Assembly: GCA_905221615.1 (NCBI GenBank)
Contig: CAJNDT010004891.1
Coordinates: forward strand, 479,501 to 543,500
DNA length: 64,000 bases
Direction of reading: 5' to 3'
Source of the DNA: Symbiodinium sp. CCMP2592
Taxonomy: Eukaryota > Sar > Dinophyceae > Suessiales > Symbiodiniaceae
Positions within the stretch are counted from its first letter, which is position 1. Every line of letters begins with the position of its first letter. The translations under genes were made by a program, and so were the position numbers. Below the pieces are notes generated by a model, which made no database searches, was not told the DNA's origin, and worked only from the letters and a program-made list of their open reading frames with translations. This document shows positions 50,561 to 57,400 of this stretch, in pieces.

Positions 50561-51169
50561 GCTGCCTGTCTTCTGACCATCTCGCTCAGCCTCGGTTTGG
50601 GTCCCAGCAACCTTCAATGCATGGCTGCGGCTCAAGCGGGAACTGAACACAGATAGACACGCCCCCTGGGTGGCACCATGCAGGTGCGTGCTGGACGGTA
50701 GATGTGCAGTCGCAGCGCCAGCATTTCGAGTCAGCTCAGGCCATCCTAAGGGGGCTTCTGCTGGTCTGGTCGGCTCTCGCTCAGGCCGGGGTCCTCCAGC
50801 TCATTGTGTTCTGGGACTTTCGTGTCGTGAAAAAATGCATAGGATTCCAGCTGCCCCGTAAATGCTGACGGCAGCGGCGCCTGTACCGGGCCCAGCAAGG
50901 CCACAGCTGATGTGCACTGCCCCTCTTTGTATGTCCTGATGTTCCGTGTCGACAGGCAGATGCGAATCACACTTCGCGCTGTCGCGCGCAAGGCTTTGAC
51001 CCAGAAAAACTGGGCTGCCAGACATGCCGCGTTTTGGAGCAGAGGCTAGGAGGGCAAGTCTCAGCTGTCTCTTGCATGTGCCTTTGTTGTGAGTAGGCTC
51101 AAGGAAAGCGGCGTGGCTTCTGCGACCCTGGCCGGGAACTGCCTCGAGTGCTGTGAAGAGGCGAGAGCG

Positions 51170-51170
<1 letters not shown>

Positions 51171-51217
<47 letters not shown>

Positions 51218-51405
51218 TCATCTCTATCTCTCTCTATCTCTCTACCTCTCTCTATCTCTCTATCTCTCTCTATCTCTCTATCTCTCTGTCTCTCTCTCTC
51301 TCTCTTTATCTCTCCATCTCTCTATCTCTCTATCTCTCTATCTCTCTGTCTCTCTCTCGCTCTCGCTCTCTCTCTCTCTCTCTCTATCTCTCTCCCTCTT
51401 TCTTT
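51171..51405. repeat. (TC)n and TCTCTA microsatellite
   Basis: About 235 bases of ctctct with tatctc and tgtctc interruptions. Frames here encode alternating Leu-Ser with occasional Tyr/Ile and are not genes. A gaaccggttctcgag frame follows after gtttccag at about 51448. Confidence 0.95.
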
Positions 51406-51447
51406 TTGTCCCGGAAGAAGAAACTCAATGACTCCGTTTCCGTTTCC

Positions 51448-51690
51448 AGGAACCGGTTCTCGAGCTGTTCCCAAAGGCAGCGTCTAGTTCTTGCGGATGC
51501 GATGTCGGCGTGGCCTCAGCCTTTGCAAGGCAAGGCTGATTGCCGACGCTGCGCAGCAGGAACGAGACCAGGACCCTGCTGAGGCTTTTGCACCAGGAGG
51601 GCTGCAGAGCATGGCTGATCTTCTGGCAGGACCTCCATGATTTCATCAAGAGAAAAGCGCCACGTATCCGAAACCTAGAGGCGCAGAAAG
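51448..51690 (+). CDS. Possible exons upstream of the selenoprotein gene
   Basis: EPVLELFPKAASSS follows a pyrimidine-rich acceptor at about 51449, and DLHDFIKRKAPRIRNLEAQ follows tctggcag at about 51630. Both are protein-like. They could be early exons of the selenoprotein gene 1.2 kb downstream or of a separate gene; nothing in the sequence decides this. Confidence 0.3.
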
Positions 51691-52740
51691 TGCCATCACT
51701 TTGCGTGGCATGTATAGGTCCAAGCGCGGAGGCAAAGGACTGTACAGCATGTGCTGTTGCAGGTTTTGGAGGACCATGCAGTTTGATGTGGCTTGATGCG
51801 TTGGCTTCGGATGTATTCCTCCCTATAGGATTCTCATGTTCGGAGACTTTGGTTAGGTGCCACGGTCACGCCCCTCCCGCAACTGGCCGTCCTGGGCTTC
51901 TGTTCAGGATCTTTTCGCGTGAAATCGAAGGCTTTACACATCGCCGCTGCACTCCTGTCCTCCAGACAAGCCTAATTTTAACGCTACGCCGCCCGCCTCG
52001 GCTGTGTAGCGGCAGGGCGAGGGGGCAGTCGATGTTTTTTTATGCTAGGGCGGCCTGTCAAACCCCATCCTTTACACGGTTGTTGATACGAAGTGCGAGG
52101 AGAATGGGTAGGGGAGGGGGGGAGGGCGGGGGGGGAGGGGGGGGGGGGAGGCCTGGGAGGGGGGGGGAGGCTGACAAATCAGGTAAAATGAGGGGAAGCC
52201 GGGCAAGGGGGTGGCAAACGAACGCAAAAAACGGGTGTCCAAACATTTGGACTGCAGGGAGGAGGATTAGGTGGAGGGTACCTGAGCTAACCCCCAAGAC
52301 GCCTGGGCCTGTGGCCTCGGCGGATTCATCGTAGAAATATAATTGACTGCTTCTCATGCGAACATGATGGATCGTGCTCCCGCCACAGGGCCGTGTGCTT
52401 GTTGGCCTTGCGTATCGTTTTCTTGGCGCGGTGCCTGCGTACGCATCCCGAAGTCGTGCTCGGGCCACCTGGCCACAGCGCGCATTTTCCGAGAATCGCT
52501 CCCCTGCCAGACCCGGGCACGTTTGATGTCAGGCTCATGCTTCCGAGAGAGCCTGGCGTGCGTCCGCATCTTTTGCCACCGTCTGGTGTGTGTTTGGACT
52601 CGTCGGGTGGACACTTGTACTTACTTGTTCTCCTGGAAGGGTTCTTGGATATTCTTGGGTATTCGGCTTGGACATGATTGGGCATGCTCAGTTCGACCCT
52701 CTGTTTAGCAAGCCAGGGATGGAGTTCCTGCGATTCTGCG
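51691..52740. other. No supported gene; includes G-run tract
   Basis: The 264-codon plus frame 51540-52334 passes through a poly-Gly tract created by the G-run and has no family pattern after 51690. Minus-strand frames encode Pro/Ser low complexity. Confidence 0.35.
52098..52175. repeat. GGGGAGG-type G-run tract
   Basis: More than seventy bases consist of runs of 4-10 G separated by single A, C or T, so the plus strand could form G-quadruplexes. The strand asymmetry is complete. Confidence 0.9.
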
Positions 52741-52744
52741 AAGC

Positions 52745-52872
52745 TCAAACCCTAAAACCCTAACCCTACAACCCTAACCCTACAACCCTAACCCTACAAC
52801 CCTGAACCCAAAACCCGAACCCTAACCCTAAAACTAAAGCCCTAACCCTAAAACCCTAACCCCTAAACCTTC
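52745..52872. repeat. Interstitial telomere-like CCCTAA(A) array
   Basis: About 16 degenerate units of aaaccctaa, accctacaa and gaaccctaa. It ends at a ccttcag acceptor that opens the first placed exon of the selenoprotein gene at 52875. Confidence 0.9.
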
Positions 52873-52874
52873 AG

Positions 52875-54369
52875 GTGGATTACCAAGCTGGCTCTTGGCC
52901 AGCCATCGAGCTAGAGACCAATGACGGGTCCGGACGAGTTCTGCGTGCAGACGTGAAAGGCCCGGTTTGGAGTTTAGAGTTTAGGGTGCTCCTGTTCGTG
53001 TTAAAGTGGCCGTGTTTCAAGCGCCGGCAGATTGGAAGTCCGATCACTTGGTGCAGTTCCTCAACATGCGCCTGGAGGCCATGGACTCATGGGACGCCCA
53101 GAGTCGAAGAGCTGCCTTCACCGTTCTGCAGTTGCTTTTTTGAGGCCGCAGAGGACGAAGGCAAAACCGGAGCCATCGGAGGAGCTTGGAGCGCTGAGAT
53201 CCAGCCGCTCGGCAGCATCCTGCGAGCAAAAAGCGATTCTCACGGGCCCGCGTGGCCCGCGTGGCACCATGCGGCACCAAGGAGCTGCTCCGGCTGACGC
53301 TTGAATCAACTCCCTGAGGCACGTGCCACAGCGTTTCGAAGAGGTCGAACAAAAGGCCCGCCATCCCACCCGCGGAGGCACGGCGCTTCATCAAGGAGCC
53401 CGGCCACGCTGATACCTACGTTGGGCTGAAGGCGGGGCTCTGGTTCGGATGGCCGAGACCTGGTATCGGTCTGACTGGGAAGGTGAACTTCATCCCGCAT
53501 CACAATCCGGACCTTGTCTTCTTCAATGAGTGCCAGTCCCAACTCCGTTCTGTCGCATGCTTTCACGGTTAAGCTGGTTCTACGCAGGCACGGAGAGGAG
53601 CAGGAGAGGCTGGATCTTGGCCGCTACAACTTGCAGCAGATCCACGATCTCATGGCTGCGAAGGGCTTCAAGCGCTCCCTGACTTCCAACATCTTGGCCC
53701 ATCATAATGTATATATATATATATATATATATGTCTATAGCTATATCTATATCTATATCGAAATCTATATGATGAACATGGTGAACATCACAATTTGGTG
53801 ATTTATCACTCCCAGCCGGTCCGTTTCGAGGCAAGGAGCCCAAGAAGTACAAGGGGGAGATTCGCACCTGCAGCGGCTGACGCTTGAACCAGCTGCCTGA
53901 GGCACCCTTTGCTTTGCTTCTTCGCATTGCCCTGCACGCAAAAGAGACCCTGACGGGAGACGCCAGAGGTTCGTAAGTTCGTCCTTGGGCATGGTAACGC
54001 TGACTCTTACGTTGGGCTTCGGCACCTTGGATCTGCAATGCAGTTGAACTCACACGCTGATGGGTCGACACTGTTCTTCCCGTGCTCCCACTTTCCAGGC
54101 TCAATTTTGTGCCTCACCACCCGCCCGTGTTCTACACCTTTGACGAGAACGGCAACGAGAAAGAGTCGTGTTTCTGCAGCAAATTCAGATGCCCTGTGCC
54201 TAGATTTTAATGAGCAGGGCTTTGAATTGAGGATTGACATGAGCGACTACTCCTTGGTGGAGTTGCAGGACTGTTCAGGGATCCAACCGGGTGCCGGAGC
54301 GCATGCCGTGAGAGTGTCGCATAGGAGCTGATGGCGGAGAAGGGCTTCATAAAGAAGGAGCTGCTCTAG
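52875..54369 (+). CDS. Two-domain Sep15/SelM-type selenoprotein, two in-frame TGA (Sec)
   Basis: Eleven exon pieces join with consistent phase: 52875-52959, 53031-about 53110, one ending 53318 that starts near 53282, 53378-53431, 53483-53529, 53588-53673, 53816-53901, 53969-54021, 54099-54167, 54232-54268 and 54325-54369 (tag stop). Domain 1 reads CSG-(TGA)-RLNQLPE, ARRFIKEPGHADTYVGLK, VNFIPHHNPDLVFFNE, HGEEQERLDLGRYNLQQ and IHDLMAAKGFK. Domain 2 reads KKYKGEIRTCSG-(TGA)-RLNQLPE, VRKFVLGHGNADSYVGLR, LNFVPHHPPVFYTFDENGNE, SIDMSDYSLVELQ and ELMAEKGFIKKELL. This is the Sep15/SelM fold: CxxU before L-N-x-L-P-E, a beta-strand plus F-x-P-x-x-x-P, and a final helix x-L-M-x-x-K-G-F. These are ER thiol-disulphide oxidoreductases in animals. 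The N-terminal exons (GSWPAIELETNDGSGRVLRA, DWKSDHLVQFLNMRLEAMDS) are unrecognised and their join to domain 1 (53110-53282) is unresolved. Introns are 51-142 nt: six GC-AG, two GT-AG, one GA-AG. No start codon was fixed. Two adjacent genes, rather than one, is the alternative. Confidence 0.85.
53295..53297 (+). other. Candidate selenocysteine codon TGA, domain 1
   Basis: The codon lies in tgc tcc ggc TGA cgc ttg, giving C-S-G-U-R-L. In animal SelM the equivalent stretch is C-G-G-U followed by x-L-N-x-L. The reading frame continues past it with strong family similarity and correct splicing. Confidence 0.85.
53710..53775. repeat. (TA)n and TATC microsatellite within the domain-linking intron
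   Basis: A 22-base (TA) run followed by tatagctatatc repeats. It lies in the 142 nt GC-AG intron 53674-53815 between the two selenoprotein domains. Read without splicing it gives a Tyr/Ile-rich tail. Confidence 0.85.
53878..53880 (+). other. Candidate selenocysteine codon TGA, domain 2
   Basis: The codon lies in tgc agc ggc TGA cgc ttg aac cag, giving C-S-G-U-R-L-N-Q. It occupies the same position as the first TGA although the surrounding synonymous codons differ, so it is conserved between the two domains. Confidence 0.88.
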
Positions 54370-54385
54370 CCAATACATGCTTCTG

Positions 54386-54511
54386 GGCTGCAGCCGCTTT
54401 CCAACCCACGTTGTCCCGCACTTGTGCTCGTGACTGTATCGAAACATACAGTCAATTATTCGCAACCCCCTGGCAATCGCGATTTTTCAGCATTGAAAAG
54501 CGGCTGCAGCC
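54386..54511 (+). promoter_or_regulatory. Long-range hairpin just after the selenoprotein stop
   Basis: The 15-mer ggctgcagccgcttt (54386-54400) is the exact reverse complement of 54497-54511. Inside the loop gactgtat (54432-54439) pairs perfectly with atacagtc (54446-54453) across a six-base cgaaac loop. It begins 17 bases after the tag stop, where a 3' UTR structure would lie. The usual SECIS quartet (TGA opposite GA) was not evident, so a role in Sec decoding is only a possibility. Confidence 0.45.
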
Positions 54512-55140
54512 GAATGTACAAAGCCAAGACGTGTGAGGTGCGAGCAGTTCGAATCGTACATCCTTTGGGCGAGCCTTACTGCGATACAGCGGGGCTGTCA
54601 GCAATTCAGCTCCAATGAAGCTTTCACCGGCATCAATGACTGGTTCGGGTACCCCGGTTTACACAGTTACATCTAAAGACACCGGGACAAGCCTGAGCAA
54701 CGGAGACATGGCCCAGCCAGGGGGTACCCGACCGTGATGCCTGCGAGCTGAGCACCTGTTGTCCAGCTGACAGGTCCCTTGCTGCTTCGTGAAGTTTCGG
54801 TTCCGCCCAATGAGGGCTCCTTGTGCATCACGAGTCCTTCGGCTCGTGTGCACATGATAATGTGAGAACCCCGGCTTGAGCTGTGATGAGCTCCAGCAAG
54901 GGTGGCTTAGATGCTGTTTCAGGTCTAGTACTCGTAGTGTATTGCAGCTTCTGTGTGTGGTGCCAGCGGCCAGTTAACATTGCCTGTTGAGTGTGCCAGC
55001 CGGAGCGGAGTTGCCAGTGATCGGCTCATGCCCGGTGGCCATGAATGGCAAAGGCGCAGTGCCAACCACCAGACCGGAGCTGCGAGACCCAAAAAGAGGG
55101 GACTGCAGACCTCGCGGGCGCCCTCGAGCCTTTCGTGCCT
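54512..55140. other. No supported gene
   Basis: Short frames on both strands without recognisable motifs. A possible 64-codon frame (54424-54618) overlaps the hairpin. Confidence 0.35.
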
Positions 55141-55149
55141 TGCAGAGCC

Positions 55150-55840
55150 CTCCTGTGAGGCAAAGGCGGCCTTTGACGAAGCTCAGAAGGAGCTCGACGT
55201 GGCTGACGAGGTCGCTTGCGAAAAGGAGGCCGGGAGAGCACTAAAAGGTTGGGTTGTCAGCTGGCAGAAATGGCATGGTTTTTGGTTTTTGTTTGTGTCA
55301 ACGAGTACTTAGAGAGTTGGCAGAACATCGCACTCACCTCCTGAAGGTGGGCCTTGTCAAAGCCAAGACACAGTTGGAAGCCACAGAGCAAGCTTTGCAG
55401 GCGGGCTCATATCATGAGATTCGTCATAGACACCTTGTGGTGAATTCCGTCTTGAGATTGGTTGAAGACTCTCCGATTCGAGGACAAAGCCAAAGTGATT
55501 GAGGCTGCCACGGGCGAGGTGGACGCATTCTCGGAGGCGTGCTGAGAGCATATCCGGGTTGAGAACTTGGACACCGGTTTCTTCCATGACTGCCTTCATG
55601 GTCTGGAAACAAGTTTCTGAACCACCTGCGTCGCTTGACACTGAAACCCTGAAGGTGCTTGCGGTCTTCACGGAGGTCGCCGAGCGATCGCATCCTCCCG
55701 AAGTGCCAGAAGATGCGAAGGATGCGGAGGCCGAAGGCACCTCCACCGCAGCAGCGGAGGCCCGGACCGGGCTTGCTTCCCGTGCTTCCATTATGTGTGT
55801 TGGTGCCAACTATGCCACAGAGTATAGTATAGTGCAGTAA
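55150..55840 (+). CDS. Coiled-coil protein gene, 3' exons
   Basis: Splice-bounded frames: AKAAFDEAQKELDVADEVAC and EKEAGRAL (about 55160-55245), ELAEHRTHLLK (about 55316-55348), AKTQLEATEQALQ (about 55361-55400), FEDKAKVIEAATGEVDAFSE (about 55479-55545) and a last exon with LKVLAVFTEVAERSHPPEVP and AEGTSTAAAEARTG (about 55650-55840) ending in taa. The Ala/Glu/Lys heptads match the coiled-coil gene at 47.5-50.6 kb in style. Function unknown. Confidence 0.55.
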
Positions 55841-55925
55841 TACTAATAGTCACAGTAATAGGTAGTAGGTAAGAGTCATAGTAATAGTCATAGTCATAGT
55901 AATTGTCTCAGTCATAGTCAGTCTA

Positions 55926-55960
<35 letters not shown>

Positions 55961-57400
55961 CTACTACTACTACTAAGACTAAGACTGAGACTAAGACTGC
56001 GACTAAGACTTTAAGAGTAAGAGTAAGAGCAAGAGTAAGAGTACTGTAATGGCAATGGCAGTGGCCATGGTAATAGTAATGGTCATGGTAACAGTAGTCG
56101 TGATCTAATCGTAATGGTAATGGAAATGGTATTGGTACTAGTAGTAGTAATAGTCTAGTATATAGTATAGCAATAGGTGACAAATAGTTCAGAGTATATC
56201 ACAGTCTAGTACCGTAGAATAGAGTAGAACAGAGTAGAGCAGAGCAGAGCAGAACGGAGTCGAGCGGAGTAGAGAAAAAGAGAAGACGAGAAAAGACCAT
56301 GGGCTTTAGGCTCCAGACAAAGACTGTAGAGTTTCGCAGTTTAGAGAGTACAGGGCGTGTGGGAGTAAAGAGTATGTGTTCATTATACGGTACAGAGTAT
56401 AGGGTACAACATTGCTCAGTACGCGGTAAATGTTACAGTATGCAGTAGACAGAACATAGTAGAGAGTATAGCATATAGCATAGTCTATACTGTATACACA
56501 GTGTGTAGTATGTAGTATGGTAGTATAGAGTGGAGAGTATATAGTGTAAAGCGTATTGTATGTAGTGCATTTCGGCTATGTCGTATCCAGTATACAGCAT
56601 ATTGTGTCTAGAGATAGCATCTCATACACATGTAGCACGCCACGCAGTATGTCGTATATCGTAGAGGGTACTGAGTACATCGCATGTAGTATATGTAGTA
56701 TGTAGTATAGAGTCTAGAGTATGCAGGGATATAGTATAGAGTAAAGTACGGTATATGGCCTCACTCTGGGTAGAACAAAGTATAGAGTATGACGTATCGT
56801 GTTAGCGCAAAGTACAGTGTATAGTACAGTGTATAGTACGGGGTACGAAAATAGTGTACAGTAGGGTGCACAGTATAGTGTATCGTACAGAGGGTAGTAT
56901 AGTGTGCAGTATGTGGTGTAATGTATAGTAACGCACAGTAGAGTCGGAACAATTGCATAGTGTACAGTTTCGTGATCAGATGTCATTCGGTCAGAATATG
57001 TTTTTGATACCAAGATTCTACAAACATGCAATCGTGCGTGATGCATCTTCCCATCACCGTGCGACAGCCTTGCAGTGATACACTCTTTTTAAACAGTGAA
57101 CTTTAAACCCTAAACCCTAAACTCTCCTATGATGTTCTGGTACTTGTGGTAAGAGATGCTGCTTGCTCTTGACGGCTTCTCGCAGGGGGCGGCGACTGAA
57201 CCTCCAAAAGTCGGATCCTCGGTGTCAGGGTATAGTATAAGACAGTATAAGACAGTAGAATATAGTGTGAGATACCAGAGGACAGTATGATTCAACGTAT
57301 AGTATAGTATATAGTATAGTACAGTATAGTACAGTCTAGTATAGTATTAGTATAGTATTAGTATAGTATAGTATACTACAGTATAATATAGCATAACCGA
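55841..57400. repeat. TAG/TAGTA-type low-complexity region
   Basis: About 1.5 kb of degenerate agt, tag and tagtata motifs. It begins with a (AGT) run at about 55926-55960 followed directly by (ACT) at about 55960-55976, which can fold back. Then come aag/act, ggtaat and tatagtata variants. A TTTAGGG-like pair (aaaccctaaaccctaaac) lies at about 57104. No coding sequence is supported except a short unassigned frame near 57180. Confidence 0.8.

Follow-up and report, generated by a model that had tools for sequence, protein, structure and literature searches.

SELENOM is a single-domain protein of about 15 kDa with a C-terminal ER-retrieval tetrapeptide, and modules of the SELENOF and SELENOM types form separate proteins in the organisms where they have been described. 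SELENOF lacks a typical ER-retention peptide and is reported to be kept in the ER through the binding of its Cys-rich domain to UGGT (PMC6266307, PMC8360269); this UGGT-binding domain contains six Cys (PMC8360269), and UGGT activity is raised by SELENOF (PMC6266307). Plant and algal homologs of SELENOF include forms in which CMR or DQW replaces the CxU motif (PMC7539508). Fusions and multi-Sec proteins are on record as well: the GST-MSRA protein of Emiliania huxleyi, which has been presented as the first case of two selenoprotein genes being fused, the algal SELENOM-pVHL and SELENOM-ShKT fusions, the two-Sec SELENOJ of Alexandrium and the algal SELENOW with a UxxU motif (all PMC7539508), and MSP, also with two Sec (PMC2375036). 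The selM gene of Amoebophrya, a syndinean dinoflagellate relative, is reported to have one UGA that is likely to encode Sec (PMC6394959).

The gene described here combines these elements in a different way. In the window, that is, the whole 64-kb stretch of Symbiodinium DNA that was analysed, one gene of 20 exons occupies positions 50678–54369 on the + strand, and it is larger than the stretch in which the domains were initially noticed. Probably, this gene is spliced to encode a single ER-type polypeptide that consists of a leader, a SELENOF-like module and two SELENOM domains with UGA in the CxxU motif, with a predicted redox role while docked on UGGT. The window protein resembles SELENOM in having a Trx-like PF08806 domain with CxxU and an in-frame UGA but differs in having two such domains and two UGAs, against the one in Amoebophrya selM, an extra N-terminal module, and a C-terminus (KKELL) without a KDEL-like ER-retrieval end. 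The N-terminal module resembles SELENOF in keeping the six Cys and the Trx-like domain but differs in that CxU is replaced and that the module is fused to two SELENOM domains; a typical ER-retention or KDEL-like C-terminus is missing from SELENOF and the window protein alike. None of the fusions and multi-Sec proteins in the portions of PMC7539508 and PMC2375036 that were covered is described as a SELENOF-like module followed by two SELENOM domains, and a literature search that extended to titles, the beginnings of abstracts and parts of the main text of PMC7539508 turned up no protein named as SELENOF-SELENOM-SELENOM, although such a protein may be in print elsewhere. This is a new domain architecture built from known families.

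The sequence-only reading had delimited the gene as 53282–54369. This span proved to hold exons 12–20, whereas eleven further exons upstream (50678–53203) had been left out. The complete model has 357 codons, with two TGA codons and the terminal TAG as the in-frame stops; the two TGAs are the sole internal stops and each falls on the U of a CxxU motif. The donors of the 19 introns are GC in 14 cases, GT in three and GA in two, and all 19 acceptors are AG, with G as the next base in 18. Splicing in Symbiodinium has been reported to use GC and GA donors beside GT, with the acceptor AG often followed by G (PMC4083563), so that the splice sites of this gene conform to the reported pattern, which counts for the gene model. 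The longest intron (51681–52874, 1194 bases) contains telomere-like CCCTAAA-type repeats at about 52747–52870 and long G-runs near 52110–52170, and extended simple repeats of CT and AT are found in the introns 51161–51449 and 53674–53830. On the downstream side of the gene, AGT/ACT-type simple repeats form long runs at about 55821–56000. No tRNA was found in the 64-kb window.

A protein search with a query that reached upstream of the first TGA yielded a 195-residue relative, P0063, and the N-terminal exons were placed by tblastn of P0063 onto the window, with matches from about 50737 to 53204. P0063 starts with the leader, continues through the SELENOF-like module and extends as far as the first TGA, ending with C-S-G immediately ahead of it, and is identical to the window protein in 187 of 195 residues. 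Exon 1 (50678–50683) provides the Met-Gln start, given that P0063 begins with MQAILRG and that the window reads ATGCAG and then enters a GT intron. Exons 2 (50740–50784), which encodes the hydrophobic leader AILRGLLLVWSALAQ, and 3 (50843–50899) come from the tblastn match and the gene model. The alignment with SELENOF adds to these two sources for exon 4 (50956–51044; Cys45, 57 and 60) and exon 5 (51097–51160; Cys81, 84 and 85), which encode the Cys-rich domain, and for exon 7 (51530–51571), the site of the lost CxU; exon 6 (51450–51476) was read from the window sequence and belongs to the same model. The Trx-like domain of the module is encoded by exons 8 (51630–51680) and 9 (52875–52959), placed by the P0063 match, the model and PF08806, and ends in exon 10 (53031–53077), where P0063 rules out an extension to CGAAGA. 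Exon 11 (53145–53203; P0063 match and model) encodes the linker AAEDEGKTGAIGGAWSAEI. The N-terminus, a putative signal peptide, is hydrophobic (mean Kyte-Doolittle value of 1.26 over 17 residues).

The similarity of the N-terminal module to SELENOF is apparent from several comparisons. PF08806 matches residues 112–170 of the window protein with 27.6 bits, just above the cut-off of 26 (P0063 itself scores 25.6 bits, slightly below), and the match starts at position 17 of the profile, beyond the redox motif, so that the positions of this motif are unmatched in the module. The 195 N-terminal residues align to a hand-entered sequence of human SELENOF with a score of 111, compared with a mean of 30.6 for shuffled sequences, and none of the 2000 shuffles scored as high; the same holds for the Trx-like part alone (0 of 2000), and for the Cys-rich part alone two of 2000 shuffles did. 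In this alignment, Cys 45, 57, 60, 81, 84 and 85 match the six Cys that human SELENOF has in its UGGT domain, and the CGU of SELENOF is aligned with DAA, leaving neither CxU nor Sec in the module. A PDB sequence search with P0063 found no SELENOF or SelM chain, and a search of PDB folds with its structure model, which is poor (single sequence, pLDDT of 55.2), found nothing at E ≤ 0.001. Judging from the alignments, the module is probably SELENOF-like, with a Cys-rich domain of the UGGT-binding type and a Trx-like domain that lacks CxU. The initial impression of a two-domain protein accordingly stands for the SELENOM pair but not for the whole: because a SELENOF-like module without Sec precedes the pair, there are three Sep15/SelM (PF08806) domains in all.

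The two CSG-TGA-RLNQLPE segments on which this impression was based are present as reported. The first is in exon 12 (53282–53318), at which P0063 ends, with the TGA at 53295–53297 (codon 196, the putative Sec 1), and SELENOM domain 1 continues through exons 13 (53378–53431) and 14 (53483–53529) to its end in exon 15 (53588–53673), as supported by the gene model and the open reading frames (ORFs) of relatives. The same sources delimit exon 16 (53831–53901), which encodes the linker and the second segment, with the TGA at 53878–53880 (codon 282, the putative Sec 2). Domain 2 extends over exons 17 (53969–54021), 18 (54099–54167) and 19 (54232–54268) to exon 20 (54325–54369), which includes the TAG stop; these four exons are supported by P0001, an intron-free ORF cluster found on 52 contigs, none of them longer than 1195 bases. 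P0001 matches domain 2 of the window except for the start residue.

The domains are joined by a GC-AG intron with an AT repeat (53674–53830) that is absent from the ORFs of relatives, which read GFKR-KEAKKYKGEIRTCSG across the linker where the window has c|GC...GAG|gc. The existence of a GC-AG intron between the domains had been foreseen correctly; its acceptor had been placed at 53815, whereas the exon resumes at 53831, and the residues GPFRG of the earlier frame thus come from the intron. A start of domain 2 at GPFRG and a 34-base intron yielding YFNEQGFELR are both ruled out by P0001 and the 84-residue ORFs of relatives. A few intron-derived residues were present in each of the protein-search queries, and the matches are independent of them. 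In P0011, a relative on another contig, the linker intron is short and the AT repeat is missing, which shows that the size of the repeat varies between relatives.

With the final exon model, PF08806 matches SELENOM domains 1 and 2 with 59.0 and 55.3 bits, far above the cut-off of 26, so that the CSG-TGA domains are not a product of chance. Their motif is CxxU, as in SELENOM, rather than the CxU of SELENOF, and in a PDB search with domain 1, mouse SelM (2a2p) was the best match and scored 36.7 bits (E = 4.5e-08), compared with 14.6 bits (E = 0.41) for fly Sep15. NCBIfam profiles gave no match near any cut-off. The copies share 40 of 74 aligned residues, 18 of which are encoded by different codons, so that domain 2 does not look like a recent copy; the observation that the copies differ synonymously yet both keep TGA is thereby borne out. 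The terminal LL of the window protein recurs in all nine domain 2 ORFs compared (P0001–P0008 and P0010).

A two-domain relative of 229 residues on an NCBI contig of 10801 bases, P0059, has two PF08806 stretches (127 bits) and ends with IVV. Its structure model (mean pLDDT of 70.2, 41 aligned sequences) retrieved SelM 2a2p first in a fold search (E = 2.2e-06), and Sep15 2a4h came eleventh (E = 2.8e-03). Protein disulfide isomerases also string together several Trx-like domains, and some of these domains have no active site. They belong to another family, and the alignments of multi-domain isomerases to the P0059 model have an rmsd of about 15–24, which makes the likeness a loose one.

Telomere-like and simple repeats inside the introns might be taken as signs of a decayed gene copy in which the TGAs are mere damage, but the frame is intact across all 20 exons, the splice sites are consistent and domain 2 recurs as the intron-free P0001 cluster on 52 contigs, which leaves this explanation with hardly any credibility.

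Evidence that both TGAs belong to one mRNA comes from relatives. The protein set that was searched (about 5.8 billion proteins) treats TGA as a stop, so that a single mRNA predicts ORFs of relatives bounded by the two TGA sites. With the stretch between the TGAs as the query, 48 matches were obtained among 52 candidates, and 46 of these (P0012–P0057) are on contigs of 916–1919 bases without the introns of the window. Each of the 46 covers domain 1 sequence and the linker and terminates with C-S-G or C-P-G, that is, at the second Sec position. In 28 of the 46, the ORF starts at an LNQLPE-type sequence directly after the first Sec site and is exactly 84 residues long; the other 18 have later start codons and 60–83 residues. 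The relatives are known as translations of ORFs, and a stop codon at the Sec sites is deduced from where the ORFs end. These intron-free ORFs place both UGAs in one mRNA in diverse relatives, with a continuous frame from the first to the second UGA. The sole named organism among the 46 is Amphidinium carterae (P0052, from EukProt). The identity of domain 1 of the window to six of the 46 ORFs ranges from 76 of 84 residues (P0012) down to 49 of 81 (P0050), a range that suggests that the two-UGA arrangement is old. The searches of viral contigs and of bacterial and archaeal genomes confirmed no relatives.

The single frame across both TGAs that the sequence-only reading had proposed is therefore supported by these 46 of the 48 matches together with P0063 and P0001, all in agreement with the gene model, and the findings that it had named as contrary evidence did not appear in the data seen: Cys occupies the second Sec site in none of the 48 matches, and none of the 46 intron-free ORFs ends after domain 1. 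The remaining two matches, P0011 and P0058, come from long contigs, where their ORFs run on into introns; that of P0011 ends at the second Sec site despite the read-in, as does P0060, which was found by a further search. Together with P0009, P0061 and P0062, also on ENA contigs, P0011 and P0058 are further genomic copies or relatives with ORFs that read into introns.

That the locus consists of two adjoining genes, each for a single-domain, single-Sec SELENOM, might be suggested by the tandem gene arrays reported in dinoflagellates (PMC4083563), by the completeness of each SELENOM domain and by P0058, which ends after domain 1 on a contig of 373,921 bases. The end of P0058, however, is in intron-like sequence and its tail looks like intron read-through, 46 of the 48 matches continue from domain 1 into the linker and are free of stops until the second Sec site, and domain 1 and domain 2 ORFs, three of each and all in single-contig clusters, come from contigs of matching sizes (1358, 1362 and 1215 bases), which suggests, but does not prove, that the members of each pair are on the same contig. 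The two-gene explanation is thus extremely improbable, and a single gene is the preferred reading.

Both UGAs in this gene are probably read as Sec, as indicated by their position in CxxU and their conservation, and because the 357 codons include no further in-frame TGA. The alternative is that these organisms decode UGA as Trp or as a different standard amino acid. The protein sequence of P0059 has Trp at both Sec positions, which may reflect translation of TGA under table 4, a genuine Trp variant or an organism whose code assigns UGA to Trp, and an Amoebophrya, a syndinean relative, has been reported to read UGA as Trp (PMC6394959). A UGA reassigned in this way would not be expected from what is seen here, where both UGAs coincide exactly with the Sec position of a SELENOM-domain CxxU motif, no further TGA interrupts the frame and the ORFs of 46 of the 48 matches terminate at the second Sec position; furthermore, 26 to 29 selenoprotein genes have been reported in Symbiodinium minutum (PMC7539508). 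A residue other than Sec at these sites is very unlikely.

A SECIS element was sought by several approaches. At the gathering score, Rfam gave no match of any kind in the whole window, and at E ≤ 10 in 54300–55900, it gave three weak, chance-like matches, all to C/D snoRNA families, and no SECIS. A strict SECIS pattern scan marked seven sites on the + strand across the window, all of them away from the gene, and a folding scan placed two weak candidates within 54200–55900, at 54494 (24th of the 25 best listed for the window) and at 54235, inside the gene. A further candidate, a SECIS-like hairpin at 54629–54741 on the + strand, was noticed by eye in the fold of 54560–54960 and only afterwards scored, by a scan designed to permit a bulge and a long apex. 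This candidate starts about 260 bases past the stop codon and has 14 pairs and one bulge, with UGA (54637) and GA (54736) facing each other below the stem. Of 140 places scored on the + strand across the window, this one came first by the post hoc score. Its apex greatly exceeds the usual length, and the fold is unremarkable compared with shuffled sequences (z = −1.61). Right after the stop codon, 54370–54560 form a long hairpin with arms at about 54386–54400 and 54497–54511 (z = −2.79), in which no SECIS core was seen and which may be a remnant of a mobile element or a structure of the 3' UTR.

In the proposed mechanism, the leader would direct the chain to the ER, UGGT is the predicted docking partner of the SELENOF-like part, and the two CxxU sites would perform disulfide chemistry on the glycoproteins that UGGT recognizes. 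The simplest division of labor would be a SELENOF-like dock and two SELENOM domains that provide the chemistry.

The position of the first UGA directly after the complete SELENOF-like module and its linker, such that a product stopped there is the whole module, also brings up a selenium switch. At low selenium, translation would stop at this UGA and yield a selenium-free SELENOF-like protein, the short form predominating for at least some of the time, whereas with selenium the two SELENOM domains would be added, so that selenium supply might toggle between the dock and the dock plus catalyst. On its own, this proposal is unlikely, and it is compatible with the two-Sec polypeptide preferred here rather than exclusive of it. 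A broader scenario can be put forward tentatively, although it is unlikely: in dinoflagellates, selenium would have been transferred from SELENOF to a pair of appended SELENOM domains, creating a two-Sec oxidoreductase docked on UGGT, and the first UGA would act as a selenium-sensing switch that leaves a complete, redox-dead SELENOF-like adaptor.

When TGA is taken as a stop, as in standard annotation, the protein splits into three seemingly unrelated pieces, and, as anticipated for such annotation, the protein set contains the relatives as separate ORFs of 195, 84 and 73 residues. If the proposed organization is correct, modules of the SELENOF and SELENOM types would be united in one chain, with the UGGT-adaptor part freed of redox chemistry, and the purpose of SELENOF docking on UGGT would become testable by separating docking from catalysis. 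Work on repeated Sec decoding would then gain a naturally occurring mRNA in which two UGAs lie far apart, each matched to its own domain.
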